Assembly (NCBI RefSeq): GCF_018860705.1
Contig: NZ_JAHKQA010000050.1
Location: forward strand, 1-32,822
DNA length: 32,822 nucleotides
Direction: 5' to 3'
Origin: Citreicella sp. C3M06
GTDB lineage: Bacteria > Pseudomonadota > Alphaproteobacteria > Rhodobacterales > Rhodobacteraceae
Shown here: piece by piece, positions 1,113 to 31,467 of the stretch
Layout: every line of letters begins with the position of its first letter
Position numbering within the stretch: position 1 is the stretch's first letter
Position numbers and translations under genes: made by a program
Notes under the pieces: generated by a model
The model's database searches: none
Told to the model about the DNA's origin: nothing
What the model saw: only the letters and a program-made list of their open reading frames with translations

Positions 1113-1114
1113 CG

Positions 1115-13945: not shown

Positions 13946-16900
13946 ATGCTCAGCCCGACCGATTTTTCACCCCATGCCGACCGGAAACGCCATCGCGCCC
14001 GCCGCGTCGCCGCAAAGGACGCGCTGAGGCGCCAGAGCTTCAGACACTCGCAGCGTCTGTCGTTTACCGCGATGGCGCGCGATCCGTTCTATCGGGGCAT
14101 TGCCGCCGGGTGCTGCCCCGCCACGCTGGCCGCGAACATCAGAGATCTGGGTTTCAGCCTTGCAGCCGATGTGGCCGCGTGCGGAACTCCCGCCGCGCTT
14201 CGGGCGCGCCTTGCGGATCGGGCGCAACCCGATGAGGCCAACCTCAGCCGCCTTCTGACGCAAGCGCGGCGCGAGGCGCTTCGGGCATGGCGGCTGTCAC
14301 GCCACGCGCTGGCGGTGAACGATCCGATGGGCCGCGCGCTGCGTCATATTCCCGCGCCCCTGTCGCAAGACAGCGCGTCGACACAATCGCTTCCAGCCTA
14401 TGCCAGCCCCGCCAGTTTGCAATCGTCGCAATCCCCGGCGGCCTACCTGTGCCACTTGTACCGTATCGCGACGGGCGAGGACGCAGAGATTGGCATTCGC
14501 TGCCCCACGTCCAGCCCCTTTGCCATCGCCAAGCGACGACCGGACCTGCACGCGCTAGTGCTGAGCGAAGCCAACCTCAAGACAGAACTGCCGACGCTAG
14601 AGCTGGTGAACGAGGTGCTGGGGGCGGAACGCTCCGCGGCAAAGCTGGCGGCGGATCTTGCGGCCGGGTTTCACCCGCTGGCCCTGCCCTACGATCATGC
14701 CGCCACGAGGGCACGAACGGCGCTGGCGCAACTGGGGAATACCCGTTTCAACGACATCGCGGCCCGTATCACAAGCCTGCCGACCGATGGCAGCGCAGGG
14801 TATGGCTGGGCCAGAGACCGCCCCGGCCTTATGGGCGTGCCGGACGCGGTGATGCCGCTTCTGACCGGCGCGCAGGCGGACCCGGCAGAGCGTCCGGCCA
14901 CGCTTCAGGGCCTTTACGGCTGCACCACCCGCGCCGCCGCGTCGGGTACCGATCAGCTGATGCAAAGTCTCGATCAGACGTTCGACGGGCTGACGCAACT
15001 TCTTGGGCTCTACAATGTCTCGCGCGAGGGTACGGGCAGCGCGGCGCAGCGCGATTTTGCCACCGCTTTCCTGAACAACGACGTCCCCTTCGCGATCACC
15101 TATGCCCAACTGCTCAAATCCGCCACCATGGCGGGCGAGCCCCTGCCCGCCCCTGTCCTGCGCAGCCTGAATATCCTCGCCCGGTTGCAGCGCGGCACAG
15201 GCCTTGCATATCACGACCTGAACACGATCCTTGCGCTGCCCGGAGCGGCGGCGGATGGCGCGGCCACGGGGGCGGATGATCCGGTTGCCCCGGCCCGTAC
15301 CGTGACGGATGCTGGGGTGCGCCTGCTGGCCAGCTACCCGCTGTATCAAGAGGCTTTTGGCCTGTCTCCGGCTGGGTTTGCGGCGCTGTTCGGCGCGCCC
15401 TGCCCCTACTGGCGCGCCGATGTGATCCTGCCCGCGCAGGACGATGGCACCGCGCTGGAACAGACCGAACGCTCGTTCCTGCGCAGCCTGTTTCACGAGG
15501 ATGCGCCAGCATTGCAGACACTGCTGGATGCGGGAACCACGCCTGTGCTTGATCCAGATCTTGCGCCGCTGATCGCGCGGGGTCTTGGGTTGACCGCGCT
15601 TGAACTGGACCGGCTGGTGGCGGTGCTGGACGCATCATTCGCGCTGTCGCAGGGGCTGGATGCCCGCGGGCTTGGCGGGCTTTACCGCCTGTCCACGCTG
15701 TGCCGGATGCTGGGATGGCCTGTGCTGTCGGGCCTTGCGGCGATTGATCGTCTGCCGGGGGGTCCTGCGGCGCTGTACCTGCGCAATGAGACCGCCGCGC
15801 AGACCCTTGCGCTGTGCGATGCGCTCGACTGGCTGCTCGCCCTGTCGCGCTGGATGACCGAGACCGGGCTGACGCCAGATGCGCTTTGCGCCCTGCTGGC
15901 GCCGGACGCGGCCCTCCTCGGCGATGCCCAGATCGCATGGCTGGGCGCATTGCAGGACGCCTTTGCGCCGATTGCCGCGAAGGCGGGCGTTTTCGCGGGG
16001 GCCGAGACATGGCAGGGGCCAGAGGGCGGCGAGACGACGATTGCCGCCGAAACCTGGCATGCCCACCTGAAAAGCACCGCCTCAGGCCCCATTCTGCGTA
16101 GCTCCGGCGTATTCTACGACGATGCGGACCGAGCGGGTATCGAGGCGGCCTGCAAGGATTGCCTTATCGCCGCCGGGCTGGATCCCGCCGCATCGGGCAT
16201 CGCCGAGCCGCTGCGATTGCTGGTCGCGCGGCTGGATGCGCTGCGCAATGCGCAGGCCGAGCTGATCGCCGCGCAGGTCGTCTCGCTCGATCCGGGCCTG
16301 AGCGTGGTTGCAGCCGTGTCGCTGATCGGCTGGGCGCAGTCCCGCCCGCTCAGGCTGCTGCATGATCTGCTCGCCGGGCCGGACGATCCCGCTTGTCTCC
16401 ACTGGATGTCCGAACTGACACGGCATATTTCCGCGGCATCGGCGCTATCGCTGGGCGAGGCCGATCTGTGGCTGGTGGCCGAACATCCCGACTGGCTTGT
16501 CGATGCACCGCAGTCGGATACGCTGGGGCTGGCGCAGCTGTACCATCTGCAACGCTTCGGCACGCTTCAGGTCGGGGTCGCCAGCGACGCTGCGTGGGTC
16601 GGCTATCTGGCGCAATCTCAGGACAGCCCGCCCGAGGCGCAGGCGCCGGGCGATCTGCCGGGAGACTGGGTCACTGGCTGCCGGCAGGTGATGGCGCTGA
16701 TGCTGGGCTGTGCCACAGAAGACGCCGACGTCTATCTGGACGCGCTTCTCGGCCCGGGGCGCGTGGCGCAAAGCGTTGCCGAGATCGACGCGGTCGCGCG
16801 CCATGTCCGGCTGGCCGACGAGCTGGGACTGAGCGCGGCCGACCTGCTGGCATTGACGCGCGTCAGCGACCCCGGCCTTGAGACCCAGTCCAGCCCGCAC

Positions 16901-19900
16901 AGGGGCGACGCATGGCAAGCGGCGGCCAGCGCGGCGCAGGCTAGCCTGTCGCGGCCCGGCGACGAGCAGAACCTGCAAGCGTTTCAAAACGCGCTGGCCG
17001 AGCGGCATCGCGATGCGCTGGTGGCCGATTTTATGCAGAACCGCATCGCCGCCGAGCCGCGGCTGAGCGCCCGCATCACCGATCACGAGGCGCTTTTCGG
17101 CTATCTGTTGCTGGACGTGAACGTCAGCAGCGCCGTGCCGACCAGCCGCATCATAGAGGCGACCGCCGCGCTTCAGCTGTATATCTCGCGCGCGCTCGAA
17201 GGGCTGGAACCCGACGTTTCGTTCATCGACCGCCGTGGCAACGACCGTCGCCCCGCGCTGGCCGCCCAGTGGGAGCTGGACCGCGATTACCGCATGTGGG
17301 AGGCGAACCAGAAGCTGCAGCTGTATCCGCAGAACTACCTTGAACCCGAATTACGGCAGATCACCTCGCCGGAGTTCGACACGCTGTTGCAGGCCGTCTC
17401 GGGCGGTGACATGGGCCCCGACACGGTCGAGGCGGCGGTCAACGCCTACATGAGCGCGCTGGCCGGGCTGTGCGACCTGAGCCTGTGCAGCTTTTTCGCC
17501 GACCGCCACAGCGACGGCGCTGCGGACGGGATCGAAAATACCACCTATCATGTGCTTGCCAAGGCCAAGTGGGAACCGGGGCGTTTCTTTTATCGCAAGC
17601 TGGACGCAGATTTCCGCACCATCGCCGCGATGGAAGACGGACTGGAAAACGGCGTGCCATGGCTCAAGGCGATGGATTGGACCTATTGGCAAGAGGTGAC
17701 GCTGCCGCTGACCTTCGATCTGTTCTCGGAGGTCGCGGTCTGCGTGTTCCGCAACCGGTTCTATTTCTTCTGGATCGAGATCGAGGAGCGCCGCGAACAA
17801 AGCGGCGAGGCCCCCCGGTCGATCTGGCGTCTGCACCCTCGCTACATGCGCTGCGATCAGAACGCGCTGGTGGGGCCGATGCTCAAACCCGGGCTTTTCA
17901 CCCACGGCGACCCGGGCAAAGGCGCTGCGGCAGTGTCGCTTGGGGATGCGTTCGAATGGACCGGCGCGCGCCCTGAGTTGAACGGCACCTACCACCCGAC
18001 GCGCGCCCCGGACAACCTGTACACTTACGGCGTGCTCGATCCCCAGCCGAACGACAGCGCCCCCAGCGGCGAGACGCTGACCGTGAGTTTTGGCATCGAC
18101 CTGCCCGAACAGACCGCCGAAGCCAGCCCCACGGATGCGGCCAACACCCGCCGCAGCACGTCGCTGCACATACGCTTGTCGCAGGAATGGTCCGACGCGA
18201 TCCTTGACCTGAACCGGGCCATCGACACCGCCGCCGAAGACAGCGCGCCGGCGGGTTACGCGCCGGTTCATCCCCGGCTGGTGTCGGATTTCGCGGTCGT
18301 CGCCGACCAGTACAGCCAGACGATCGAACACGAGGTGCCGGACAAACTGGTCGCGCGCTATGAGTTTTCCCAGCCCTGCCCGATCAAGCTGCACAACGGC
18401 TTTGCGCCCGGGCGGATGCGCTCTGTCGCCACCTTTGTGCCCGCCCCGCGTGGCGCCTCCAGCGCGGGATCGGTCAAGGTTCAGTTCGAGATCGGGCAAG
18501 GGCTTTACACCCTCACGACGACGGACCCGGATCTGGATATCCTGCACCTGCTCGAAGAAACCAAAGCCACGCCGGGGTCTGTTGTCTGGACCACGGAATT
18601 CAGGAAACACGGGGAACGGGTCGGCGGCTCTGGCTCTGGCGCGACGGAATGGATGCCCGCGCGCTTCGTGCGATCCGATGTGCCGATCCCGGCCCCGGAC
18701 AGGACCGGCCTGCGCACCGCCAGCTTTTCCCATCCGCTGAATGTGCAGGTTTCAACGGGTTTGTCGATGTTCTCGGGCTGGACCGTCGCCGAGGGCGAAA
18801 CCGGAGAATACGAGATCGAGGCCGTCCTGCGGCGCTATCCCAGCCCGGTGACGCTGCTGGCCGGATCGCCCGGCGCGCGCGAGACCGTGGCCCCCGAAGA
18901 AGCGGAACTGCGCGCCGATCTTTCGGTGGGCACCTTCGTCCTGCGGCCCGCGAACGGGCTGGTCAACATCGGCTGGACCCAGACCGGGCAGCACGGCAGC
19001 CGCAATTTCATGCATCTTGTCGACCGCCCCGACCGTACCATCGGCGACACCTATGTGTTGGCGAATTCATCCACGGTGCTGGCAGATCTGGCGCGAACCA
19101 TGCCCCGCCCGGGTGGCTGCGAAACTCTGTTCGAGCTGCGCAACCAAGGCGGAACCGAGGATTACGGCACCTTTTTCCACCAATACGGTGCCACGCTTGG
19201 CGCGATCTACGGCGACGACGCCGCGCTAAACCCGGCGCGCCTGCCGACCGAGGCATTCGACTTTGACAGCGCCTATGGGGCCTATGGCTGGGAGGTGTTC
19301 TATCACCTGCCTGCCGCCATTGCAGCGGGCTATACCAGCGGCGGGCAATACGATCTTGCGCTGGAATGGCTGCGCCGCATCTTCGATCCGCAGCTGGACC
19401 CCGCATGGCGGGTGCAGCCGCTGATTGACGCGCGCGATCCCGGCGGGCTGCACGCCTTTGATACCGGGGCGGTCACCATCGACCCCGACCGCATCGCGCA
19501 GGATTACCCGTTTTACTACCAGCAAGCCGCCATCCGTAGCACGCTGGAGGTTCTGATCGATGCCGGAGACGCCGAATACGAACAGGAAACCCGCGACAGC
19601 CTGCGCCGGGCCAAGGCGCGCTATGTCGCGGCACGGCAGTTGTTCGACGATACCCTGTCGGCCTCGCTGGAAAACGTGGTGAACACTCCGTGGACCGATC
19701 CGACCCTCGGCGCTGCGGCCACCACGGACCAGGACGTCTTTCTGCCGCCCTACAATGCCGAGTTGCGCGCGCTTTACGCCACCATTCAGGACCGGTTGCA
19801 CAACCTGCGTCACTGGCTGACCCTTGCGGGTGAACCGCTTGACGTGCCGCTTCTGGCGAAACCCGTCGATCCGCGCCAGTTGCAGCGCGCCGCCAAGGCC

Positions 19901-21502
19901 AGCCTTGCGCTGCGCGGCGGATCGCCGGACGAAGACCCGGAACCCGCCCCTCCCCCTGTCGATTTCATCTATGTTCTCGACTCCGTGCGCAGCTGCCTTG
20001 GCAACCTCAAGCTGACCAGCTACCGGCTGCAGGATACCTGCGAAAAGGAAGCGGATGCCCAGATGCGGCAACTGCAAATGGACGCCAGTATCGCCAAGGC
20101 AGGGCGCGCGATAGATCTGCATGATTACGTCATCAACGCCGCCGAACGCGATGTGGCGATCAAGGGCGTTCAGGTCGCCGCCGCGACCACCGCGATGGCC
20201 GGTCTTGTGGCGCAGATGCTGCTTCGCACCTATGACGTCGTGTCCCGGACCGCCGAGGCCGGTTTTGCCCGGGTCGACGTGGCCCGAACGCATCTGGTGA
20301 ATGTCGCCAGCAAGATTTCGGCGGCGCTGAAATCCAGCATCCCGGACACGTTCGGCCTGTCGACCGGCGGGCAGAATCTGGAACAGGCGGATGTGGTCGG
20401 CTGCATCCACCTGATCAGCTATTTTCTGTACAAGAAAGAGGCGCGGGACAAGACCGCCGCCCTGCGCGTCTCGAAGGGCGAGTTGCTTGAACTAAGCGCG
20501 AAATTCTCGACCCTTGGCTTTGCGCTCACCACCGCAAGCATGGACCTGAGCAAGGCCAAGGCGGTGCTGGACCATCAGCGCGCCGTTGGCGAAGAGCTGG
20601 ACAAGCAGGAGCTGGCCGCGCAGGCGGTGCGGGACAAATGGGACGAGGTTTTTGGCGGCACGCGCGTTTACAGTCCCTTCCGGCAGGATCTGGAGCGCCT
20701 GTACCAACAGGAATGGGCGGTGGCGCAGGAACGCTGCCGGTTGCTGGTTCGGCTTTACGACGAAGAAACCGATCGCAGCGACGGGGCCAGCTTTCTCACC
20801 ACCTCCAGCATCGGGGGCGAGCCTGAAAAGTTCAGCGCGCCGCACCGGCTGGCGCTGGATGTGGAACGGCTTGAAACCGCCTTTATCCAGGCCGCGCTGG
20901 ACAAGGCCAGCGACACGAGCGAGTTCACCGTTGCCCTGTCCGAAATGCCGTCGCTCGGGCAGCAGACCGCGGCGCTGGACGAGCTTCTGGCGCAGGGCGA
21001 AACCTGTTTCCGCCTGACCGACGAGATGGTCGATGTGTTCTATCCCGGCCAGTACGACCGGCGCATTCAAAGCATCGCCGTGCGCTGGCCCAGCCTGTCG
21101 GATGCCGGGCTGCGCCCGCATGCGCGTCTGACACAGATTTCAAACACATGTTTCCTGTCGCCGAACCGCGCCGCCGCGGGCGAGGCGCGCATCCGGCGGG
21201 ACCGATACCCGATGCAAAGCCTGTCGCTGGGGTCATGCGAGGTCGACTCCCGGTTGCTGCAATCGCCGCCGGGGGTGCTGGGCCGGTTCCAGAACACCGG
21301 GCTGGATTCGTGCTGGAAGCTGGTGATCCCGACGCTTCAGGCGCTCCACCGGGACCCGAAGGGTCACGGCGCGGGGGCAGGCATAGGTCGCGGCGCGGGT
21401 CGGGCGTGGCGCAGCGCGGCCGAGGCCCGCAGCAAAACCCTGCGGGACGCCCTGACAGAGATCGAATTCACGGTCCGCTTCAGCGGCCGCTGGGCACCAT
21501 AG
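13946..21502 (+). CDS. Tc-toxin A subunit (TcA/TcdA-like)
   Basis: A 2518-residue single-gene relative of Photorhabdus/Yersinia TcA proteins, which form the pentameric receptor-binding, pore-forming translocation channel of Tc toxins. Landmarks in order: a VRP1-type N-terminal region with QSPAAYLCHLY (162-172) and KRRPDLHALVLSEANL (196-211); the ABC-toxin/neuraminidase-like region (about 1045-1290) with VPTSRIIEATAALQLY, QLYPQNYLEPELR and FFYRKLDADF; the C-terminal part from about 1765 with GWEVFYHLPAAIA, EWLRRIFDPQ and DRLHNLRHW; a long helical channel segment (about 2165-2275); and the TcB-binding end with FYPGQYDRRIQSIAVRWPSL. No signal peptide is seen, as is normal for TcA. GAGAGGTGAT precedes the ATG. 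No TcB, TcC/YD-repeat or holin/lysozyme gene is in the window. The frame is intact throughout, so it is probably functional or recently so. Confidence 0.9.
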   Translation: MLSPTDFSPHADRKRHRARRVAAKDALRRQSFRHSQRLSFTAMARDPFYRGIAAGCCPATLAANIRDLGFSLAADVAACGTPAALRARLADRAQPDEANLSRLLTQARREALRAWRLSRHALAVNDPMGRALRHIPAPLSQDSASTQSLPAYASPASLQSSQSPAAYLCHLYRIATGEDAEIGIRCPTSSPFAIAKRRPDLHALVLSEANLKTELPTLELVNEVLGAERSAAKLAADLAAGFHPLALPYDHAATRARTALAQLGNTRFNDIAARITSLPTDGSAGYGWARDRPGLMGVPDAVMPLLTGAQADPAERPATLQGLYGCTTRAAASGTDQLMQSLDQTFDGLTQLLGLYNVSREGTGSAAQRDFATAFLNNDVPFAITYAQLLKSATMAGEPLPAPVLRSLNILARLQRGTGLAYHDLNTILALPGAAADGAATGADDPVAPARTVTDAGVRLLASYPLYQEAFGLSPAGFAALFGAPCPYWRADVILPAQDDGTALEQTERSFLRSLFHEDAPALQTLLDAGTTPVLDPDLAPLIARGLGLTALELDRLVAVLDASFALSQGLDARGLGGLYRLSTLCRMLGWPVLSGLAAIDRLPGGPAALYLRNETAAQTLALCDALDWLLALSRWMTETGLTPDALCALLAPDAALLGDAQIAWLGALQDAFAPIAAKAGVFAGAETWQGPEGGETTIAAETWHAHLKSTASGPILRSSGVFYDDADRAGIEAACKDCLIAAGLDPAASGIAEPLRLLVARLDALRNAQAELIAAQVVSLDPGLSVVAAVSLIGWAQSRPLRLLHDLLAGPDDPACLHWMSELTRHISAASALSLGEADLWLVAEHPDWLVDAPQSDTLGLAQLYHLQRFGTLQVGVASDAAWVGYLAQSQDSPPEAQAPGDLPGDWVTGCRQVMALMLGCATEDADVYLDALLGPGRVAQSVAEIDAVARHVRLADELGLSAADLLALTRVSDPGLETQSSPHRGDAWQAAASAAQASLSRPGDEQNLQAFQNALAERHRDALVADFMQNRIAAEPRLSARITDHEALFGYLLLDVNVSSAVPTSRIIEATAALQLYISRALEGLEPDVSFIDRRGNDRRPALAAQWELDRDYRMWEANQKLQLYPQNYLEPELRQITSPEFDTLLQAVSGGDMGPDTVEAAVNAYMSALAGLCDLSLCSFFADRHSDGAADGIENTTYHVLAKAKWEPGRFFYRKLDADFRTIAAMEDGLENGVPWLKAMDWTYWQEVTLPLTFDLFSEVAVCVFRNRFYFFWIEIEERREQSGEAPRSIWRLHPRYMRCDQNALVGPMLKPGLFTHGDPGKGAAAVSLGDAFEWTGARPELNGTYHPTRAPDNLYTYGVLDPQPNDSAPSGETLTVSFGIDLPEQTAEASPTDAANTRRSTSLHIRLSQEWSDAILDLNRAIDTAAEDSAPAGYAPVHPRLVSDFAVVADQYSQTIEHEVPDKLVARYEFSQPCPIKLHNGFAPGRMRSVATFVPAPRGASSAGSVKVQFEIGQGLYTLTTTDPDLDILHLLEETKATPGSVVWTTEFRKHGERVGGSGSGATEWMPARFVRSDVPIPAPDRTGLRTASFSHPLNVQVSTGLSMFSGWTVAEGETGEYEIEAVLRRYPSPVTLLAGSPGARETVAPEEAELRADLSVGTFVLRPANGLVNIGWTQTGQHGSRNFMHLVDRPDRTIGDTYVLANSSTVLADLARTMPRPGGCETLFELRNQGGTEDYGTFFHQYGATLGAIYGDDAALNPARLPTEAFDFDSAYGAYGWEVFYHLPAAIAAGYTSGGQYDLALEWLRRIFDPQLDPAWRVQPLIDARDPGGLHAFDTGAVTIDPDRIAQDYPFYYQQAAIRSTLEVLIDAGDAEYEQETRDSLRRAKARYVAARQLFDDTLSASLENVVNTPWTDPTLGAAATTDQDVFLPPYNAELRALYATIQDRLHNLRHWLTLAGEPLDVPLLAKPVDPRQLQRAAKASLALRGGSPDEDPEPAPPPVDFIYVLDSVRSCLGNLKLTSYRLQDTCEKEADAQMRQLQMDASIAKAGRAIDLHDYVINAAERDVAIKGVQVAAATTAMAGLVAQMLLRTYDVVSRTAEAGFARVDVARTHLVNVASKISAALKSSIPDTFGLSTGGQNLEQADVVGCIHLISYFLYKKEARDKTAALRVSKGELLELSAKFSTLGFALTTASMDLSKAKAVLDHQRAVGEELDKQELAAQAVRDKWDEVFGGTRVYSPFRQDLERLYQQEWAVAQERCRLLVRLYDEETDRSDGASFLTTSSIGGEPEKFSAPHRLALDVERLETAFIQAALDKASDTSEFTVALSEMPSLGQQTAALDELLAQGETCFRLTDEMVDVFYPGQYDRRIQSIAVRWPSLSDAGLRPHARLTQISNTCFLSPNRAAAGEARIRRDRYPMQSLSLGSCEVDSRLLQSPPGVLGRFQNTGLDSCWKLVIPTLQALHRDPKGHGAGAGIGRGAGRAWRSAAEARSKTLRDALTEIEFTVRFSGRWAP

Positions 21503-21601: not shown

Positions 21602-21631
21602 TTCACCGTCTGTGCAAGACATGCTTACAAT
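21602..21631 (+). promoter_or_regulatory. weak sigma-70-like promoter candidate
   Basis: TTCACC (21602-21607), an 18-base spacer, and TACAAT (21626-21631). The -10 is good (5 of 6 to TATAAT) but the -35 is poor (4 of 6). It lies between the dyad at 21564 and the HPt gene and would give a leader of about 150 bases. Confidence 0.25.
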
Positions 21632-21784: not shown

Positions 21785-22153
21785 ATGCCCGAAGACAAGC
21801 CGCGTTTCGAAGACCGCGTAGCGGAGATCCGCATGCGATTTCTCGAGACCATTCCGGACCGGCTGAAGGAAATCCGGGAGGCCATTCAGACCCCGGAAAA
21901 CTCGGACCCCGAAGAAACCCAGCTGCGCAAGGCGCACCGCATGTTGCATGACATGACCGGCAGCGCAGCGATGCTGGAACTCGACCACATCGAGGGCGCA
22001 TTCCGCCGCGCGCTGCGCATTGCCGAAGTGGCCGATGCCAAGAACACGCCATTCAACAGCGAAGAGCTTGTCATCATCAATGATGCGCTTGCCGATATTC
22101 TGGACGTGCTAGGTCAAGAGAACGCCAGCGCCCAAAATCAGAACCAGGACTGA
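21785..22153 (+). CDS. histidine phosphotransfer (HPt) protein
   Basis: A 122-residue, almost wholly helical protein with the HPt core AHRMLHDMTGSAAMLELDHI (50-69). By alignment with the usual H-x-x-K-G-x-x motif, H55 is the phospho-accepting residue; the usual Lys is Thr58, and Gly59 is kept. The frame is open upstream to 21659, but the ATG at 21785 has a perfect AGGAGG (21770-21775) nine bases ahead, so it is the start. It is the first gene of the operon and sits six bases before the BcsB-like gene. It probably shuttles phosphate between the histidine kinase and two response regulators encoded further down. Confidence 0.75.
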   Translation: MPEDKPRFEDRVAEIRMRFLETIPDRLKEIREAIQTPENSDPEETQLRKAHRMLHDMTGSAAMLELDHIEGAFRRALRIAEVADAKNTPFNSEELVIINDALADILDVLGQENASAQNQNQD

Positions 22154-22159
22154 GATTTC

Positions 22160-24094
22160 ATGACCCTTGCCAGACTCCTCATCGGCGTACTTGCCTTTGC
22201 GCCGGGCGTCGCCTCTGCCCAAAGCACAGACCAAGAGCAGCCCGCCGCCGTGGCCGATGCCACTGCCGGGTCGATCACCCGCACTACGACGCTTGCGGAT
22301 CTTGGATTTGGCGACGGTCTGACGTTCCGGCAGCTGTCCGGGCAAAGCACCGTGTTCGTTCCCGTGCCGGACACCGCTCCGCTGCGCGGCGGGACGATCA
22401 CGCTGGATCTGAAGCATGGCGCAACCGTGCCCGTGGACCGCTATCTGCAAATTTCGGTCGGCGCCCGGGTGGTGTCGACGCAATCCCTTGGGAACCGCGA
22501 AGAGACCCTGAGCATTCCGGTGCCCGTTGGCCCGTCGGACGTGGCGAACGGGTTTCTTGCGGTCAGCCTGTCGTATTCAGGGGCTTTTTCGGATCGGGTG
22601 TGCATCGACGAACGCGCCTCGGGTGATTTCCTGCAAATCTCGCCCGCGTCTTCGATCACACTTGAACTGGACGCGGACGGCATCAACTCTCCGGCGTTGT
22701 TCGCGGGCTTCCGTCCGGGAAATATGCGCATCGCGCTGCCGGATCAATCGTCGCTGGGCGGGCTGGCCGCTGCCACCCGCGCCGCTGCGCTGTTCGGCGG
22801 CGAGACCGGCAGCGTCCGGTTCGGCACGGACGCAGGCCCGAGCGGGCAGGACTGGACCGAAGGCGCCGTGCAACTGGACATCGCGACCTCGGGCGTGCAA
22901 AGCGAAATGCAGGTGCTGACCGACGCCCGCTTCCCCCACCTGACGGTGCGCGGCACCGATCCGCAGCTGGGCCTTTGGCAGCTTGCATCGAACTGGGCCG
23001 CGCTGGCCGGGGGCGACAGCGCCATCACCACGGCGGTGTCGCCGGACAACCCGACCAATGATGTTCTTGCGCTGTCGTCGCTGAACGCCGACCTGACGCC
23101 GCGTCTGGTGGTCTCCACTCAGGATGTGCTGATCCCGTTTGAATCCGCGGATCTGCCGGCGGGCAAGACCGTGGCAGCGGTCGATCTGATGATGGCGGCG
23201 GCGCTTGACGCCGAAGGGCACGGCGCGACCGCGTCGGTCTATCTGAACGAAACGCTGCTGGGAAACCGGCCGCTGCCCAACGGCACCCCCGAACGGCTGA
23301 CCTTCAACGTGCCGCGCGGGCTGATCGGGCGCGACAACCTGCTGCGCGTGTCGATCCAGCGGCAGCCCTCGGGCGGGGAATGCCGGTTCAAGCCGCAGGG
23401 CTACCCGGCGCAGATCCTGCCCGGCAGCACGCTGCGTCTGGCCGATGCCGATGATGGCGACGACCACTTCTTCACCCTTCGTCAGGATTTCGGCGAGGGC
23501 GTGCAGCTGGTGCTGGACCCCGATCTTGACCTTGCAAGTGCACTGCCCTGGATTTCCGGCGTGGCCGGGACCATGATCCCCGACCGCGCGACGATCCTGC
23601 CCCGCGCCAGCGTGTCGGCGCTCGAGCCGGGGCTGCCCTTTTTCGTCATCTCTCAATCCAATCCCGGAGACGGCGATCCAGCGATCGATTTCGACAGCGG
23701 CCGGGTCGAGATCCGCAACCGCAGCGGCGAATTGATGTTTGCCGGAGACGAGCTTGACCGGATCGGCGTCGCCCAGATCGTCACGCGCGGCGATCAGACG
23801 GGGCTCTGGCTGCGGCCGGGCACTGGCCCCGCTCCGGAACCCACGGTGCAACAGCCGCTGGTGCTGAACCGCGGCGATCTGGCTTTGCTCGACCAGAAGG
23901 GCGTGATCGTCGCCACCGGCACCCGGGTGAACCCGGTGCTGGATGTCGCCTATCCCGACCGCACCAGCCTTGCGCAGATCCTTGCCAAGTACCGGCCGTG
24001 GATCGTTGGTGGCGCATGGCTTTTGCTGACGCTGCTCGTGCTGATCGTCTTCCAGCGCATCTATCGGAACCGGCGCAACGGCTCGGCGGGCTGA
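22160..24094 (+). CDS. BcsB-like periplasmic polysaccharide synthase subunit
   Basis: 644 residues. A Sec signal peptide (LARLLIGVLAFAPGVASAQS, cleavage about residue 20) is followed by a large beta-rich periplasmic region and one C-terminal membrane helix (IVGGAWLLLTLLVLIVFQ, near 616-633) with a short basic tail. This is the topology of BcsB, the partner that completes the BcsA synthase in cellulose production and guides the polymer through the periplasm. Supporting segments are the repeated jelly-roll-like halves, SVYLNETLLGNRPLP and the C-terminal half FFTLRQDFGEGVQL. It is shorter than E. coli BcsB (about 780). It is directly followed, six bases later, by the membrane glycosyltransferase, as bcsB usually neighbours bcsA. 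Whether the polymer is cellulose cannot be said. Confidence 0.75.
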   Translation: MTLARLLIGVLAFAPGVASAQSTDQEQPAAVADATAGSITRTTTLADLGFGDGLTFRQLSGQSTVFVPVPDTAPLRGGTITLDLKHGATVPVDRYLQISVGARVVSTQSLGNREETLSIPVPVGPSDVANGFLAVSLSYSGAFSDRVCIDERASGDFLQISPASSITLELDADGINSPALFAGFRPGNMRIALPDQSSLGGLAAATRAAALFGGETGSVRFGTDAGPSGQDWTEGAVQLDIATSGVQSEMQVLTDARFPHLTVRGTDPQLGLWQLASNWAALAGGDSAITTAVSPDNPTNDVLALSSLNADLTPRLVVSTQDVLIPFESADLPAGKTVAAVDLMMAAALDAEGHGATASVYLNETLLGNRPLPNGTPERLTFNVPRGLIGRDNLLRVSIQRQPSGGECRFKPQGYPAQILPGSTLRLADADDGDDHFFTLRQDFGEGVQLVLDPDLDLASALPWISGVAGTMIPDRATILPRASVSALEPGLPFFVISQSNPGDGDPAIDFDSGRVEIRNRSGELMFAGDELDRIGVAQIVTRGDQTGLWLRPGTGPAPEPTVQQPLVLNRGDLALLDQKGVIVATGTRVNPVLDVAYPDRTSLAQILAKYRPWIVGGAWLLLTLLVLIVFQRIYRNRRNGSAG

Positions 24095-24100
24095 TCCTTC

Positions 24101-26014
24101 ATGCGGCCGGACGCTGAAAGTGAAGCCATCGGGACGCTGCTGCTTGAACGCGGCGCCCTGACGGCGGAACAGCTCGACGAGGCCGAAGAGCTCGCCGAGA
24201 AATGGAACCTGTCCTTGGTGCAGGTTCTACTGTCGCGTCGATGGCTGACCACGCATGAGCTGTACGCGCAGATCGCCACCTATCACGATCTGCCGCTGGT
24301 CGATCTGATGAGCGATCCGCCCGACAACGATCTGGTGCGGCGCCATGATCCGGCGGTGATGAACCGGTTCACCACGATCCCGATCCGCGAAAGCGGTGGA
24401 ACCGTGACCGTGGCGACCTCGCGCCCCGGTCCGGCCATGCTGTTGCACATCCGCGAAATCTATGGGCCGAAGACGCAGATCGTCGTGGCATCGCACCTTC
24501 AGATCTCGGCCGCATTGCAACAGGCCTTCCGCGAACAGCATTCGCACGAAGCGGTCTATGCGCTGGCCGAACTTGACCCGGATATGTCGGCGCAGCAGGT
24601 GGTGACGCCGCCGCAGGTCATGGTCATCTATATCCTTGTGTCGATCTTTCTGCTGGGCATGGCGTTCGCGCCGGTGACCACGCTGATCACGCTGAACGTC
24701 TTCCTGACGATCTTTTACACCGGCAATTTCCTGTTCAAGGGCGTGCTGGTCTGGGTCGGCGGCGCTGCGCAGGAAACCTCGTCGCGCGCCATCGCGGCAG
24801 AGGCGCAGCTTCTGCGTGACGAGGATCTGCCGGTCTACACGGTGCTTGTGCCGATGTTCCGCGAACCCGAGGTGCTGCCGATCCTTGCGCAGGCGCTGCG
24901 GAACCTGAATTACCCGCTGGCCAAGCTAGACATCAAAATCGTGCTGGAAGAAGGTGACCACGACACCATCGAGGCCGCGCAGAAACTTGATCTTGAAGGC
25001 GTGTTCGAGATCGTGCGCGTTCCCGCCTCGCATCCTCAGACCAAGCCCAAGGCCTGCAACTTCGCGCTGCGCTATGCCCACGGCGACCTGCTGGTGATCT
25101 TCGATGCGGAAGACAAGCCAGAGCCGGACCAGCTGCGCAAGGTGGTGGCCGCCTTCAACCAGTCCTCGCCCAACACCGCCTGCATCCAATGCCGCCTGAA
25201 CTACTACAACGCGCGCGAGAACTGGCTGACGCGGATGTTCACGCTGGATTATTCGCTGTGGTTCGACCTGATGCTGCCGGGGCTGGAAAAGATGGGCGTG
25301 CCGATCCCGCTGGGTGGAACCTCGAACCACTTCCGTATGGACGTGCTGCGCGACCTGAACGCGTGGGACCCGTTCAACGTGACCGAGGACGCCGATCTGG
25401 GCATTCGCCTGACCCAGAAAGGCTACCGCGTCGGGGTGATCGACAGCACCACCTATGAAGAGGCGAACGTGTCGATCCCCAACTGGATCCGGCAACGCTC
25501 GCGCTGGATCAAGGGGTACATGCAGACCTTCCTCGTGCATTCGCGCCGCCCGCTGCACCTGTGGCGATCGGTCGGGGCGGCGGGGGTGTTCGGCTTCGTG
25601 TTCTTCATCGGCGGCACGGTGCTGTCAGGGCTGCTGAACCCGCTGTTCTGGGCGATTTTCGGTGGCTGGATGCTCTTTGGCTCTGACGTGATCGAACCCT
25701 ACTTCCCTCTGCCCGTGCTGTATCTGTCGTTGATCAACCTGCTGGTGGGCAACGGTCTGCTGATCTACCTGACGATGGTTGCCCCCTTCCGGCGGCGCTG
25801 GACCGACCTTGCGCCATGGGGCGTGACGGTGATCGGGTACTGGGTGCTGATGACCGTGGCGGCCTACAAGGCGCTGTGGCAGCTGATCTCGAACCCATTC
25901 TACTGGGAAAAGACCCAGCACGGCCTGTCCAAGCACACCGCGAGCGAATTGGCCGACGCCGAAAGTGAAAGCCTTGGACCCGAGCCTGCCGCCACGAAGG
26001 AGGCCAGCCTATGA
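24101..26014 (+). CDS. membrane GT2 polysaccharide synthase with N-terminal MshEN-like domain
   Basis: 637 residues. Residues about 5-150 resemble the MshEN (type II secretion E N-terminal) fold: IGTLLLERGALTAEQLDEAE, then a second repeat LVQVLLSRRWLTTHELYAQI and LPLVDL. Two membrane helices (about 167-215) lead into a processive GT2 domain with FDAEDKPEP (DxD-like), TEDADLG (catalytic Asp) and QRSRW (about 465-469, the Q-x-x-R-W of cellulose/chitin/hyaluronan-type synthases), then further C-terminal helices. MshEN domains in other proteins bind cyclic di-GMP, and here one would replace the PilZ domain of BcsA. The Arg of the usual RLG motif is missing (AIG) and the second LG is LV, so binding is uncertain. 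Its stop overlaps the next gene (ATGA). Confidence 0.85.
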   Translation: MRPDAESEAIGTLLLERGALTAEQLDEAEELAEKWNLSLVQVLLSRRWLTTHELYAQIATYHDLPLVDLMSDPPDNDLVRRHDPAVMNRFTTIPIRESGGTVTVATSRPGPAMLLHIREIYGPKTQIVVASHLQISAALQQAFREQHSHEAVYALAELDPDMSAQQVVTPPQVMVIYILVSIFLLGMAFAPVTTLITLNVFLTIFYTGNFLFKGVLVWVGGAAQETSSRAIAAEAQLLRDEDLPVYTVLVPMFREPEVLPILAQALRNLNYPLAKLDIKIVLEEGDHDTIEAAQKLDLEGVFEIVRVPASHPQTKPKACNFALRYAHGDLLVIFDAEDKPEPDQLRKVVAAFNQSSPNTACIQCRLNYYNARENWLTRMFTLDYSLWFDLMLPGLEKMGVPIPLGGTSNHFRMDVLRDLNAWDPFNVTEDADLGIRLTQKGYRVGVIDSTTYEEANVSIPNWIRQRSRWIKGYMQTFLVHSRRPLHLWRSVGAAGVFGFVFFIGGTVLSGLLNPLFWAIFGGWMLFGSDVIEPYFPLPVLYLSLINLLVGNGLLIYLTMVAPFRRRWTDLAPWGVTVIGYWVLMTVAAYKALWQLISNPFYWEKTQHGLSKHTASELADAESESLGPEPAATKEASL

Positions 26015-27420
26015 CCCGCACCGCCGGATGGCTTGCCGCGGCCGTGCCCCTGTTTGCCGCTTTGCTGCTGTGGCTCGGCTGGACCGAGGCGCACGGGTTC
26101 ACCTCCTCCGACGTAACCGAACTTTGGGCCAAGGCCATCGTCCAGATTGCCGGTTCCGAACAGTTCACCGCCTCGGATGCCTTCTATCCGCCGCTTCCCT
26201 ACGCGCTGACGCTGCTTTTGCAGGCCCTTCCCGGCCAGCACGGCGTCCCGGTGCCCTTTGTGCTGTCGGCCTTCGTCGGCACGGCGCTGCTGCTGCTGTG
26301 GTTCGCCAACCTGTGGCGCGTCGGCAGGTTCTCATGGGGCAGCAGCGTGGTGATCACGGCCCTTGTTGGGCTGAACCCGTATTTCCTGCGTGCCGTGGCC
26401 GACGGGCCAGAAACCATGCTGACCATTCTTGGCGCATGGGTTTTTGCGCGCGGGCTGGTGAACCTGCGCCTGACGGGCAACGCGCCGGACATGATGAAGG
26501 TCGCGGTCGGCCTGCTGATCGTCGCGCTGTCGGACAATTACGGGCTGATGATCAGCTTCGGCGCCCTGCCCTTTCTGATCGTCGCCGCGCGCCCAAGCCT
26601 GATCGCCACCTCTTCCACTGGCTATCTGTTCGCGATGTTCTACCCGGTGCTGGCGGCCATCGGATCGCTGTTCTTCGTCAGCATGATTTTCAACAGTGCG
26701 CTGGTGCCGCAGCTTCTGGAAACGCCGGCCTCGGTATCCGTGTCCGAGCATCTGCTGATCCTGTCCGGCATTGCCCCGCTCGCGATCATCGCCGCCTTGC
26801 GCAACATCAAGGTGACGCGCCTGCTGATGCCCATCGTTGCCGCAACGGCCACCGTCGCCGGAGCGTATGTTCTGAACATGTACCTGAACGTCGAAGGCGA
26901 TCCACTGATCGCCATCGCGCCGATGCTGGGCGTGGTGCTGGTGGGGATGCGGTTCTGGCCGCCGGTGCGGTTGCGTGAACCTGTGGTCATCGCGCTGCTG
27001 TGCCTCAGCCTGCTGCAATCCGTGGTGGTCATGCGGCACACCACCGTTGCGGAAACCCGCGACTGGGCGCAGGCGTCGCTTGGGCAGGTGATCGACGTTG
27101 CGGCCCCGACGCGCGCGGCGGCGGCCTTTGTCAGTGACAAGACCGACATCATGCTGGATGTGGAACGCAATGCCGGAATGGTCGTGGCCCTTGGCGATGT
27201 CAGCGGGCTGCTGATGGCCGGACAGCCCACCTATGACTGGGCGCTCGAAGGAGGACTGCCGCAGGCGCGCTACATTCTGGTTCCCCGCCCCGCAGAGGGC
27301 GCGCCGGTGACCGACCGCGTGCTGCGCCGCTTTCCGGAACTGAGCCGCAATCGCCTGTCCGGGTATAACGAGATATACGCCAACAGCCAGTGGCGTGTAT
27401 TCGAGAAGACAGGGTTTTAG
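26011..27420 (+). CDS. polytopic membrane protein, possible GT-C/GT39-like transferase
   Basis: 469 residues with roughly ten hydrophobic segments and a soluble C-terminal end. After the first helix come SSDVTELWAKA (D34, E37) and then FYPPLPYALTLL, reminiscent of the first loop and the H-P-P-L-x-Y block of GT-C enzymes such as PMT/ArnT-type transferases. I cannot confirm catalytic residues, so this is tentative. ATGA overlap with the synthase upstream indicates coupled translation and a shared pathway. It could decorate the polymer from a lipid-linked donor, or be a structural or export subunit. Confidence 0.5.
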   Translation: MTRTAGWLAAAVPLFAALLLWLGWTEAHGFTSSDVTELWAKAIVQIAGSEQFTASDAFYPPLPYALTLLLQALPGQHGVPVPFVLSAFVGTALLLLWFANLWRVGRFSWGSSVVITALVGLNPYFLRAVADGPETMLTILGAWVFARGLVNLRLTGNAPDMMKVAVGLLIVALSDNYGLMISFGALPFLIVAARPSLIATSSTGYLFAMFYPVLAAIGSLFFVSMIFNSALVPQLLETPASVSVSEHLLILSGIAPLAIIAALRNIKVTRLLMPIVAATATVAGAYVLNMYLNVEGDPLIAIAPMLGVVLVGMRFWPPVRLREPVVIALLCLSLLQSVVVMRHTTVAETRDWAQASLGQVIDVAAPTRAAAAFVSDKTDIMLDVERNAGMVVALGDVSGLLMAGQPTYDWALEGGLPQARYILVPRPAEGAPVTDRVLRRFPELSRNRLSGYNEIYANSQWRVFEKTGF

Positions 27421-27431
27421 AGGGTTAACAG

Positions 27432-28364
27432 ATGTCACATCGAATCATGTCCGTAGACGATTCCGAGACCGCGCAGGAATATATCCGCGCCGCGCTTCTC
27501 GATGTCGGCTACGAAGATGTCGTTTCCTTCCTGAACCCCCTCGACGCGTTCGAGGCCCTGACCTCGGGCGAGGTCAAGGCGGACCTGATCCTCGTGGACG
27601 TGATGATGCCGGGCATCGACGGGGTCGAATTCTGCGCCCGCATCCGGGGGATGGACGATTATGTCGACACCCCGATCATCATGCTGACCAGCCGCACGGA
27701 TATGGACACGCTCAACCACGCCTTTCTGGCCGGGGCCAGCGACTACCTGACCAAGCCGTTCCACCGGATCGAATTGCAAGCGCGGATGCGCAGCTGCCTG
27801 CGGCTGAAAGCCGAACTCGACCGCCGCCGCGCCGGATCGGGGCGCCGGCGGACCATCGGGGCCGAAGTCGCCGAGATGACCGAGGTGCTTAACAACAAGG
27901 CCGGGTTTCAGGCCGCGCTGCTCGCCATTCCGCCACGGCTGCATGCGCAGCTAGGGCTGACAGTGTTTCGCATCACCGGCCTGCCGGCCAACGCCGACCG
28001 CACGTCTGATGAATCCTCCGCGATCTATCGCAGCATTGCCCGCCTGCTGGGCACCGTGCCCTTGCCGGCGCGGAACATCTTCTGCCACTGGGACAAGGAC
28101 CTGTTCTGCCTTGCCAGTCCCGACGCCACCGAAGAATCCCTGCGCGAAACCGCGCAGGCCTTTATCGCCGCCGTCGCGGATGCGCGGCTACATTGCCGCG
28201 AAAGCTGGACCAAGCAGCCTCTGGGGCTGAACGCCACGCTGGTGATGCCGCGCAACCAGCCCCCCGCGTCCGGGCTTGGTCAGGCGATCGCCGCCGCCGA
28301 ACGGCTGGACGAGATGACCGGCGCGGGCATTCAGGTCGTGCCCGCCGCGCAGGGCGGTCTCTGA
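27432..28364 (+). CDS. response regulator with degenerate GGDEF domain
   Basis: 310 residues. The N-terminal receiver is complete: acidic pair D9/D10, phospho-acceptor D56 in LILVDVMMPG, T86 and K108 in YLTKPF. Residues about 150-305 have the layout of a GGDEF domain (LNNKAGFQAAL near the start, LTVFRI strand, ATLVMP and AIAAAERLDEMTGAGIQVV at the end). The active-site motif that should read GGDEF is DKDLF (221-225), and the metal-binding Asp region is also changed. It is therefore unlikely to make cyclic di-GMP and may instead bind a nucleotide or partner. It starts 11 bases after the membrane protein gene, with GAGGGTT as a modest ribosome site. Confidence 0.8.
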   Translation: MSHRIMSVDDSETAQEYIRAALLDVGYEDVVSFLNPLDAFEALTSGEVKADLILVDVMMPGIDGVEFCARIRGMDDYVDTPIIMLTSRTDMDTLNHAFLAGASDYLTKPFHRIELQARMRSCLRLKAELDRRRAGSGRRRTIGAEVAEMTEVLNNKAGFQAALLAIPPRLHAQLGLTVFRITGLPANADRTSDESSAIYRSIARLLGTVPLPARNIFCHWDKDLFCLASPDATEESLRETAQAFIAAVADARLHCRESWTKQPLGLNATLVMPRNQPPASGLGQAIAAAERLDEMTGAGIQVVPAAQGGL

Positions 28365-28366
28365 TC

Positions 28367-30364
28367 GTGTCACGCCCCGATTTCTTCCCCGAGGTAGAAC
28401 GCGTCGACGGAACCCGCTCGAAAACGAAGTTCCGGCTGCTGACCGCCCTCGTCGCACTGGTGTTCATCTTCGATCTCGTGCTGCTTGCAGTGGCAGATCA
28501 TCGCCGATCCGAGGCCCGCGCCCAACAACAGCTGCGGCATTTCGCAGAGCTTTTCGAACAGTCCCTTGACGCCTCCCTGGCGGTCGCCAACCTTGAAATG
28601 TGGGCGATGATCGACGACATTTCCTACGTTCCGCTGCGCAACAAGCAGTACATCGAGCAAAGCTACGGTCGCCGGATGCGCCGCGCGATGCTTGAGATCG
28701 AACAGATCGACAGCCTCGTCCTGCTGTCTACCGACGGCACGGTGATGTGGTCCACCGCCGAGGGGCTGTTGGGGATGAACCTTGCCGACCGGGCCTATTT
28801 TGCCAACGCCATCACCCTGTCGCGCGGCGAGTACACGGTCGGATCGCCCATCACCTCGCGCGCGAACAGCCGCCATCTGACCCCGATTGCATGGCCTGTC
28901 ATCAGCCGGTCGGGCGAGCTTCGCGGTGTCGTCGCATCGTCGCTTGGCGCGGAGTACTTCGGCAAGCTTTTGTCGCTGCAAGATGTCGGCGACGATATGA
29001 TCGTGCGGCTCGTCACCGCCGATGGGGCGTCCGCCTTTGCCATCGGACCCGAAGAGGCGATCGACACATCACAGCTGATGACCGCCACCCGCCCCCTGCC
29101 CGAAGTCGGGCTTCGGATCGAAGTCAGCCGCACCCGCAAGGCGGTCATGCGCACCTTTTGGGAACGGACCATCATCTTTGGCCTCATCACGTCGGCGCTG
29201 TCCGTGATCGTGCTGGTGTCGGTCCTTCGGACGCGGGCGCAATCGGTCAAGCTCGCCTCCGCGCTCAAGCAGTCCGAGCTGGACCGGATGAAGATTCAGG
29301 CCACCCAACGGGAATTCGACGCCATTTTCGAGAACGTTGGCGATGGCATCGTGGTGTTCGACGATCTTGGCACTTTGCACCGGTCCAACCTTGCCGCGCG
29401 CCAGTTCCTCAATGCCAAGGATGACGAATCCGCCGTGAACTGCCTGCGCAACCGGCTTCCTTTGCTGACGGAAATTCCCAAGGAAACGGCGGTTATCCCG
29501 CTATCCCTGCCGCAAACCGGCTGTGCCGAAACGCCCCAGACCATGCAATGCCGGGTGATGAAGCTTCAGCTGTATGGCGCCGAAATCGCCTATTGCGTGC
29601 TCGAAGACATCTCTGCCCAAGAACGCCTGAGCGAAACCCGCATGTCCTTCATCACATCGGTGAACCATGAACTGCGCACCCCGCTGACCTCGCTGTCGGG
29701 CGCGCTGGATCTGCTCAGGGACCGCTTTGGCGCCGAGCTGCCGGCGGGCGCGTCAAAGCTGGTCAGCATGGCCACGCGCAACGCGGACCGGCTGCTGGTG
29801 CTGGTCAACGACATCCTGACGCTTCAGGCCATCGACCAGAATCAACTGTTGATCAGCCTAGAGCCCATCCGCGTGTCCGATGCGCTGTGCGACGCCGTGC
29901 AGACCAATGCCGGCTACGGGCTTGGCCGCAACGTGACGATCGCCGCAGACCCGCTGCCCGACGGCGAAGATGCCATCGTGATGCTCGACCCGATCCGGCT
30001 GCAACAGATCCTGTCGAACCTCGTCTCGAACGCCATCAAGTATTCCCCGCAGGGATCGCAGGTGCGGATTGGCGCCGAGCTTTTGCCGGACAGCGTGCGG
30101 TTCTACGTGACCGACCGCGGCCCCGGCATTCCCTCCGACGCGCTCGGCCGGCTTTTTGAACGGTTCGGCAAACCCATCCACGGGCGCGACCTACAGGCCA
30201 GCGGCACCGGGCTGGGCCTTGCGATCACCCGCGAACTGGTCCAGCGTCAGGGGGGTGAAATCTCGGTCACCAGCCGTTCGCAATTCGACGGCGCGCAAGA
30301 CACCGGTACGACATTCCACATCCGTTTTCCGCGCCACACCAAAGACACGGGTCACACGACATGA
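28367..30364 (+). CDS. membrane sensor histidine kinase with periplasmic sensor and PAS
   Basis: 665 residues from a GTG at 28367, two bases after the preceding stop; the open frame further upstream lies inside the previous gene. Layout: TM1 (about 23-43), a periplasmic Cache-like sensor (about 45-262) containing DGTVMWSTAEGLLGMNLADR (142-161), TM2 (about 266-287), a short coiled linker, a PAS domain (from EFDAIFENVGDGIVVFDDLG, about 316), a HisKA domain with the phosphorylated H434 in NHELRTPL, and a HATPase domain with NLVSNAIKYS (N box), DRGPGIP and GTGLGLAI. There is no attached receiver, so it is not a hybrid kinase. The stop overlaps the next regulator gene (ATGA). A Cache sensor suggests response to a small extracellular ligand. 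Confidence 0.9.
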   Translation: MSRPDFFPEVERVDGTRSKTKFRLLTALVALVFIFDLVLLAVADHRRSEARAQQQLRHFAELFEQSLDASLAVANLEMWAMIDDISYVPLRNKQYIEQSYGRRMRRAMLEIEQIDSLVLLSTDGTVMWSTAEGLLGMNLADRAYFANAITLSRGEYTVGSPITSRANSRHLTPIAWPVISRSGELRGVVASSLGAEYFGKLLSLQDVGDDMIVRLVTADGASAFAIGPEEAIDTSQLMTATRPLPEVGLRIEVSRTRKAVMRTFWERTIIFGLITSALSVIVLVSVLRTRAQSVKLASALKQSELDRMKIQATQREFDAIFENVGDGIVVFDDLGTLHRSNLAARQFLNAKDDESAVNCLRNRLPLLTEIPKETAVIPLSLPQTGCAETPQTMQCRVMKLQLYGAEIAYCVLEDISAQERLSETRMSFITSVNHELRTPLTSLSGALDLLRDRFGAELPAGASKLVSMATRNADRLLVLVNDILTLQAIDQNQLLISLEPIRVSDALCDAVQTNAGYGLGRNVTIAADPLPDGEDAIVMLDPIRLQQILSNLVSNAIKYSPQGSQVRIGAELLPDSVRFYVTDRGPGIPSDALGRLFERFGKPIHGRDLQASGTGLGLAITRELVQRQGGEISVTSRSQFDGAQDTGTTFHIRFPRHTKDTGHTT

Positions 30365-30720
30365 AAGTGCTGTTTGTCGACGACGAGGCTGACATCCGCG
30401 AGCTGATCGAAATCGCGATCATGATCGAGGACGACATCGAGGCAACCTTCGCTGGCTCCGGCTCCGAGGCGCTTGCCCTTCTGGAAACGCAGGTCTTCGA
30501 CGTGATGCTTCTGGATGTGATGATGCCGCCGCCCGACGGGCTTCACGTGCTGCGCGCCGCTCGCGCCAATCCCGATCAGGACACCGCGAAGATCGTCATG
30601 TGTACCGCCCGCACGTCGCCCGAATCCGAGGCAGAGTTTCGCGGCCTTGGAGCAGACCACGTGTTGCACAAGCCCTTTAAGCCCCTGAAACTGGCGGATT
30701 ACATCCGCTCCATCGCCTGA
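30361..30720 (+). CDS. single-domain response regulator (CheY-like)
   Basis: 119 residues, a lone receiver. Conserved residues are D7/D8 in FVDDEAD, phospho-acceptor D52 in MLLDVMMP, T82 in MCTAR and K104 in LHKPF. There is no output domain, so it acts by protein contact or as a relay intermediate between the histidine kinase (whose stop it overlaps) and the HPt protein at the front of the operon. Start ATG 30361 is set by the overlap. Confidence 0.92.
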   Translation: MKVLFVDDEADIRELIEIAIMIEDDIEATFAGSGSEALALLETQVFDVMLLDVMMPPPDGLHVLRAARANPDQDTAKIVMCTARTSPESEAEFRGLGADHVLHKPFKPLKLADYIRSIA

Positions 30721-30747
30721 TTGTCCCTCCAGCGCCGGACCAAACAG

Positions 30748-31467
30748 ATGTCTCATTCCCTGCTTCGATCCGGCTTCGTGCCCGCTGCGCCCGCCGCCGC
30801 CCGTTCGATTGCCCATCCGATTGCCCTGTCGCTTGCCCTCGCCCTGCCCGGCTCCGGGGCGGCGGCCAACGCATGGCAGCGCGAGCCGGGCACTTCGTTC
30901 CTGTCGTTCTCGGTGCAATCCACCGTCAACGGTGTGGATTTCGGGGAATATGCCTCGCTATATTACGAATACGGGCTGACCGATGGGCTGACGCTGGGGC
31001 TTGATGCAGGGCGCAACCTTGTCAGCAGCGACAGCTCCGCGATCTTCTTTGTGCAGACACCGCTGTTCACCTCGGGAGCCAACCTTTTTGCGTTCGATCT
31101 GGGGATCGGCGTGGCGGATGTCGCTTCTGAACGCCGTGCCGCCCTGCGCCCCGGCCTCGCCTGGGGGCGGCCCTACACCGCGCCGTGGGGCAACGGCTGG
31201 ATGGGCGTGGATGCGACCTATGCGTTCTATGATGGCGGCGAAGCTCTGGGCAAGGTCGATGCCACTTTCGGGGTCAATCACGCCAGCGGATCGCTCAGCC
31301 TCGCACAACTGCAATTCGCCGCGCCCTCTGGTGGCGATGCCACCTTTGGCCTTGCCCCGTCCCACGTCATGAAGATTTCCGACAACAGCTTCATCGAGCT
31401 GGGCGCGCTGTACGAATTCCGCAACGGCGTCACGGCCATCAAGCTTGGCATCTGGACGACCTTCTAA
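30748..31467 (+). CDS. small outer-membrane beta-barrel protein
   Basis: 239 residues from the ATG at 30748 (a TTG at 30721 would give 248; neither has a strong ribosome site). A signal-peptide-like hydrophobic stretch (IALSLALALPGSGAAANA) is followed by alternating beta-strand sequence rich in aromatic residues (YASLYYEYGLTDGLTLGLD, ATYAFYDGG), and the protein ends in WTTF, a C-terminal aromatic as expected for Bam-assembled barrels. No TPR repeats are present, unlike BcsC. As the last gene of the operon it is a candidate exit pore or sensor-linked barrel for the polymer (inference). Confidence 0.7.
   Translation: MSHSLLRSGFVPAAPAAARSIAHPIALSLALALPGSGAAANAWQREPGTSFLSFSVQSTVNGVDFGEYASLYYEYGLTDGLTLGLDAGRNLVSSDSSAIFFVQTPLFTSGANLFAFDLGIGVADVASERRAALRPGLAWGRPYTAPWGNGWMGVDATYAFYDGGEALGKVDATFGVNHASGSLSLAQLQFAAPSGGDATFGLAPSHVMKISDNSFIELGALYEFRNGVTAIKLGIWTTF

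Follow-up and report, generated by a model that had tools for sequence, protein, structure and literature searches.

Background

How is an exopolysaccharide synthase switched when its receptor domain for the second messenger cyclic di-GMP (c-di-GMP) has lost most of the binding residues and its gene lies among those of a phosphorelay? This question is raised by an eight-gene operon at positions 21785-31467 of a stretch of 32,822 nucleotides from Citreicella sp. C3M06 (contig NZ_JAHKQA010000050.1; hereafter the window). Judged from sequence, the operon is a variant of a named machine, sfb/sfz (xag-like), of which the core is known and the signalling module seems to be the new part. The synthase in this branch seems to have lost its control by c-di-GMP and to be switched now by protein phosphorylation.

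The receptor domain in question, MshEN, is known from Vibrio cholerae MshE, which binds c-di-GMP via two 24-residue motifs (PMC5013675). The core was described in Ferriphaselus as bcsB-xagB-xagC-xagD (CDS9-12, Kato et al. 2015) and proposed to serve the formation of twisted stalks (PMC4643136); the same cluster was later called sfb1-4, homologous to sfz1-4, in stalk-forming Ferriphaselus and Mariprofundus (PMC8250860). In the parts of both reports that treat the cluster, its function is proposed from its distribution, without tests of product or enzymes (PMC4643136, PMC8250860). The Ferriphaselus genes were called similar to xagBCD by Kato et al. (PMC4643136), and in an rpfG mutant of Xanthomonas biofilm depends in part on xagA and xagB (PMC3609779); the likeness to Xanthomonas xagABCD is taken here from the description by Kato et al. 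and not from Xanthomonas sequence.

Results and discussion

A sequence-only reading of this DNA had described eight tightly packed genes in one direction, and inspection of the window bears out both the layout and the gene types (aa, amino acids).

21785..22153, + strand: HPt protein, 122 aa, single domain (Pfam Hpt 1.7e-7, 31.8 bits against a cut-off of 24.6)
22160..24094, + strand: BcsB-like subunit, 644 aa (Pfam BcsB 4.9e-9, residues 41-217)
24101..26014, + strand: MshEN-GT2 synthase, 637 aa, with an N-terminal MshEN domain (degenerate c-di-GMP site) followed by a processive-type GT2 domain
26011..27420, + strand: membrane protein with a predicted GT-C fold, 469 aa
27432..28364, + strand: REC-GGDEF-like protein, 310 aa, a receiver plus a GGDEF-derived domain without the GGDEF motif (Response_reg 1.5e-24)
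28367..30364, + strand: membrane histidine kinase (HisKA, HATPase; dCache-like and PAS-like regions both below cut-off)
30361..30720, + strand: lone REC, a single-domain receiver, 119 aa (Response_reg 1e-21)
30748..31467, + strand: predicted 12-stranded outer-membrane beta-barrel, 248 aa, with a signal-peptide-like start

The BcsB-like subunit, probably periplasmic and membrane-anchored, is the sole BcsB match in the window's genome. It was also suggested that the operon serves a secreted polysaccharide and is not a bcs operon, which remains the probable reading. The BcsB-like subunit and the BcsA-related GT2 core are common to both, but a standard bcs operon is ruled out, as the CelA model reaches 50.4 bits against a cut-off of 699.1 and no PilZ is present; nor are BcsC, BcsD or BcsZ found among the eight genes, the rest of the genome not having been searched for BcsC and BcsZ.

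The closest named system is represented among the relatives by a contig of Ferriphaselus sp. R-1 (L067), in which the BcsB-like, MshEN-GT2 and GT-C genes stand in the same order as in the window, the synthase is 47-48% identical to the window's and falls on the same tree, and an open reading frame with a CXXCH motif lies just upstream, at the position that the published table gives to cyc2 (PMC4643136). The two differ in their additions: the fourth gene of L067, in the position of sfz4/xagD, is a GH113 gene by Pfam, and no HPt, REC-GGDEF-like protein or barrel was found there, whereas the window carries the relay. They also differ in the receptor, for which the NCBIfam c-di-GMP motif scores 59.7 bits in L067 and 24.9 bits in the window, against a cut-off of 38. 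The earlier statement that no system of this composition had been described thus falls for the core, which in order and homology matches the named, though not biochemically characterised, sfb/sfz, and stands for the signalling module, of which no description was found in the literature searched, largely outside subscription journals and judged mostly by titles.

Escherichia coli NfrB-NfrA (N4 glycan receptor) likewise combines a synthase of GT2 and MshEN domains with an outer-membrane protein, and the cyclase DgcJ directly contacts NfrB (PMC8669469). In the published account, however, GT2 precedes MshEN, the signal is DgcJ with c-di-GMP, NfrA carries TPR repeats and the operon as described has no BcsB, GT-C or phosphorelay (PMC8669469). 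As MshEN is N-terminal in the window's synthase and the outer-membrane proteins are of different types, with no TPR match in the 248-aa barrel protein, the Nfr system is ruled out.

To see which genes belong to the operon, we compared the window with the best 80 of 564 loci, one genome per species (81 loci in all; L116-L118 were not counted as additional loci beside L011, L012 and L059), gene presence being called by profiles built in this analysis on contigs several of which end within the operon. The loci are mostly alphaproteobacterial, with beta- and gammaproteobacterial ones, one from Desulfobulbaceae and one from an Eremiobacterota bin. Carriers include Sulfitobacter dubius (L015) and Celeribacter halophilus (L049), and an Azospirillum (L036) is among those with a near-canonical MshEN. 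A GT-C-type gene is present in 81/81 and BcsB in 74/81, followed by the REC-GGDEF-like gene (54/81), the barrel (54/81, at a threshold of only 20 bits), HPt (31/81) and a nearby GH113-type gene (29/81 by our own profile, two of them also run through Pfam). A histidine kinase with a lone REC stands behind the REC-GGDEF-like gene in 15/81 loci including the window, 9 of the other 14 also having the barrel, and the relative L115 carries the operon's first seven genes. The sequence-only reading had named a lack of conservation of the signalling genes beside the synthase as the finding that would overturn it; the counts for HPt, the REC-GGDEF-like gene and the kinase-receiver pair go the other way.

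Gene order is conserved and distribution is patchy: a close synthase (at least 1065 bits) occurs in 5/295 genomes of the family, and one of at least 879 bits in 4/385 genomes of the class (12/385 at E 1e-150). Such sparseness fits the transfer of a cassette, and the signalling genes might serve other targets, such as motility or transcription, and be linked to the operon only as passengers. In keeping with this, the region 519-5219 of the Desulfobulbaceae bin L071, upstream of the BcsB-GT2 genes, encodes a sigma-54 regulator and a hybrid kinase that combines receiver and Hpt domains. We nevertheless consider this explanation improbable, since several alphaproteobacterial families share the arrangement with HPt before BcsB and the REC-GGDEF-like gene directly after that of the GT-C protein, and a Pfam scan found no DNA-binding domain in the eight operon proteins.

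The phosphorylation sites of the module are intact. Among the 54 REC-GGDEF-like proteins the phospho-accepting Asp is kept in 54/54 and the full pocket in 51/54; the pocket is incomplete in L023, L039 and L052 (the last cut upstream), in none of which HPt is found. The HPt His is invariant in 31/31 aligned homologues, and the kinase motif HELRTP and, by alignment, the phospho-Asp of the lone REC are kept in 15/15. Conversely, the GGDEF motif is present in 0/54, which separates these proteins from REC-GGDEF response regulators of the same layout such as PleD. The window's protein has no Pfam GGDEF match; its full-length profile matches the solved REC-GGDEF proteins 3bre and 6zxb, which we take to be WspR and DgcR, and the best stretch with PleD covers the receiver. 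Neither it nor the lone REC has a further Pfam domain above cut-off, which counts in favour of the explanation proposed below.

HPt and the REC-GGDEF-like protein also go together. Counted over the 68 loci in which GT2 has more than 3 kb of sequence to either side (13/81 omitted), the latter is present or absent in 28:0 loci with HPt and in 19:21 without (Fisher 1.4e-6; the rows being related, this and the Fisher value given below overstate independence). On a quick, midpoint-rooted tree from which L056 was omitted, all 53 REC-GGDEF-like rows fall in one 57-row group (99), from which the first to branch off are seven Azospirillaceae-type rows, with a near-canonical MshEN and no detected HPt; relative to the other REC-GGDEF-like rows the HPt label changes seven times, at least four of these changes being forced by starred branches. 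Active cyclases in the gammaproteobacterial operons were considered and rejected: behind the operon L060 has genes of CotH and phosphodiesterase/sulfatase types and no GGDEF, a result that covers two genes of one locus.

A shorter route for the phosphate is also conceivable. The kinase might phosphorylate the REC-GGDEF-like protein directly, with HPt and the lone REC as a phosphate sink or reverse path, so that control by phosphorylation would be kept. For this speaks that 16/31 HPt loci lack the kinase-REC pair in the operon, which makes HPt and the REC-GGDEF-like protein look like the older pair, and that HPt lacks the Lys at H+3 that is usual in HPt proteins. In 4 of these 16 loci (L028, L030, L031 and L076, three of them divergent), however, HPt has a small REC gene overlapping it or no more than 60 bp away, as fits a chain from kinase through REC to HPt. 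Some kinase or REC gene besides the REC-GGDEF-like one is found at a distance of at most 9.5 kb in 25/31 HPt loci, if the pair of the operon itself is included. We regard the shorter route as unlikely, although it is the strongest of the alternatives.

The second line of evidence is the degeneration of the c-di-GMP site. The window's MshEN domain aligns in register with V. cholerae MshE, with the changes R9A, Q32A, R38S, G40V and Q61Y; the twofold RLG...Q motif is not preserved, 6 of 14 positions being kept and R9, Q32, R38 and Q61 all replaced. We scored these 14 positions in 78/81 loci (L048, L052 and L056 omitted). The 31 HPt-bearing rows keep 4-8 of them. Retention is higher, at 11-13, in the nine rows of beta, gamma and Desulfobulbaceae origin, and at 10-12 in the seven of Azospirillaceae type (six identified by name), which have the REC-GGDEF-like protein but no detected HPt. 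At least 9 positions are kept in 0/31 HPt rows and in 19/49 other tree rows (Fisher 2.1e-5), two of the 49 (L048 and L052) being without the N-terminus and counting against the contrast. The NCBIfam motif, scanned in 11/81 loci, agrees: 7/7 near-canonical loci lie above the cut-off (40.7-59.7 bits) and 4/4 HPt-bearing loci below it (about 25 bits or unlisted). That most contact residues are lost in all 31 HPt loci gives the reading of a post-translational relay a more specific form.

Alternatively, the synthase could still be controlled by c-di-GMP, the REC-GGDEF-like protein binding the messenger or acting as a scaffold and the MshEN changes being tolerated. The messenger probably exists in this cell, as its genome has five GGDEF matches, and in MshE replacement of charged residues, Arg9 and Gln32 among them, altered affinity at most about fivefold (PMC5013675). 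Against this, R9, Q32, R38, G40 and Q61 are replaced together in the window, the motif score is below cut-off and the REC-GGDEF-like protein is not among the five matches. We therefore hold continued c-di-GMP control to be quite unlikely, and the five matches suggest that it is the operon that dropped out of the c-di-GMP network, the messenger itself being retained by the cell.

The biosynthetic core itself is strongly conserved. The GT2 catalytic residues D, D, ED and QxxRW are kept in 81/81 homologues and the T of TED in 79/81. In the 54 loci with the REC-GGDEF-like protein the mean pairwise identity is 80% for the GT2 core, 45% for REC, 42% for MshEN and 22% for the GGDEF-derived half. The invariant residues and the 80% identity make one product likely within this group. 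A beta-mannan-like polymer is suggested by the GH113-type gene near 29/81 loci, together with mannose-activation genes near five from separate lineages: GDP-mannose pyrophosphorylase-type genes adjoin the operon's GH113-type gene in L036, L038, L055 and L057, and in L016 BcsB has a gene of the mannose-6-phosphate-isomerase type as its neighbour (the Pfam scan covered L036 and L016; a further match lies about 9 kb away in L074). The GH113 enzymes tested act on mannans, one large clade being without an assigned function in the published survey (PMC9032380). We judge the odds to lie slightly on the side of a beta-mannan.

A GT2 paralogue with an MshEN-like N-terminus, 33-45% identical, occurs at G000 C89:65107-66886 (L114) and in L089-L113, and in more than 120/295 family genomes at E 1e-100. 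It adjoins a carA-like gene (by eye) in three loci viewed and is split into two open frames in the window's genome. It was set aside as a second copy of the system, no BcsB or GT-C match being found at L114, L119 and L120.

For the protein at 26011-27420 a profile search of solved structures gave no meaningful sequence match, and structure prediction was therefore applied; in the model it has a GT-C fold, and it is possibly polymer-modifying. GT-C enzymes are expected to carry an acidic residue in their first outer loop, which follows transmembrane helix 1. The window's protein has Asp34, and D or E stands at either of two columns in 16/24 homologues, counted by eye; its absence in the other 8/24 suggests that some lineages may carry an inactive form. 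The 248-aa protein is modelled as a 12-stranded outer-membrane barrel, possibly of the KdgM/NanC saccharide-porin family. Neither the barrel nor the GT-C homologues have a Pfam match above cut-off. A barrel homologue (146 bits) at 762-1442 of L120, a few kb from the GT2 paralogue, indicates that the barrel family is not limited to the operon.

Taken together, we see about an even chance that the operon encodes an sfb/sfz-type machine for exopolysaccharide synthesis that is now governed by a dedicated phosphorelay instead of c-di-GMP, with a mannan-like product and direct contact between the REC-GGDEF-like protein and MshEN. GT2 would build the chain from a sugar, for which mannose supplied as GDP-mannose is the likeliest candidate, and carry it through the inner membrane; BcsB would guide the polymer in the periplasm, the GT-C-fold protein may decorate it, and the possibly KdgM-like barrel would pass the polymer or its fragments across the outer membrane. 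The dCache-like kinase would sense an outside signal and send phosphate to the lone REC, on to HPt and finally to the REC-GGDEF-like protein. The latter, presumably descended from a REC-GGDEF cyclase and devoid of catalysis, would switch the synthase by binding MshEN, itself a likely descendant of a c-di-GMP receptor. Sequence and models show the parts, their intact phosphorylation sites, the lost GGDEF and MshEN residues and the conserved linkage; the product, the order of phosphotransfer, the direct contact and the sign of its effect are our inference. If a contact of the DgcJ-NfrB type were ancestral, loss of the messenger would leave a phosphorylation-gated protein-protein switch. More tentatively, and at somewhat less than even chance, both the synthase and its private cyclase would have dropped the messenger, so that a dead, phosphorylation-gated cyclase would dock on the former receptor and the phosphorelay would gate export by direct contact.

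The relatives contain possible intermediates, from a near-canonical receptor without the cyclase-like protein, through one with the dead cyclase, to the combination of degenerate receptor, dead cyclase and HPt, joined in the last stage by a private kinase and REC. In the order we favour, a near-canonical synthase would have gained the cyclase-like receiver, whose catalysis was lost; HPt would have been gained as the receptor decayed, and the private kinase and REC would have come last.

Several observations weigh against this explanation. The main one is the 22% mean identity of the GGDEF-derived half, in which no specific docking surface is apparent. Moreover, Acetobacteraceae relatives without the REC-GGDEF-like protein, and Sphingomonadales-type rows with it but with HPt not found, also have a degenerate MshEN; its decay thus needs neither HPt nor relay, and the Acetobacteraceae rows weaken degeneration as a result of the relay alone. 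Most of the near-canonical rows have lost R9 too, the Lys at H+3 is missing from HPt in 31/31, and the relatedness of the rows tempers both Fisher values. The signalling genes beside the L071 synthase point to transcriptional control. They also show that relay genes can accompany such a synthase outside Alphaproteobacteria. As to the product, the window's genome has no GH113 match, and its mannose-isomerase-family matches sit on other contigs.

Upstream of the operon, a sigma-70-like site at 21602-21631 was dropped as a promoter, one site found against 1.8 expected being at chance level. A 2518-aa TcA-like protein (13946-21502, + strand; ABC_toxin_N, TcA_TcB_BD, neuraminidase-like and VRP1 domains) stops 282 bases before the HPt gene. 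Elsewhere in the window lie two YetF-like small membrane proteins about 12 kb apart (568-1095 and 12513-13070; 62% identity over 138 residues, Pfam applied to the second only) and two alpha-amylase-family genes with a 7-base overlap (1115-4521, - strand), opposite in strand to the operon.

Conclusions

If the proposed explanation is true, this operon and its relatives would show, through intermediates that still exist, how a widespread second-messenger switch can give way to a hard-wired protein switch. The little-studied stalk/xag polysaccharide machine would then extend to several alphaproteobacterial families, with a beta-mannan-like product predicted, and the role of dead GGDEF and dead MshEN domains would become a question for the bench, with named strains in which to address it.

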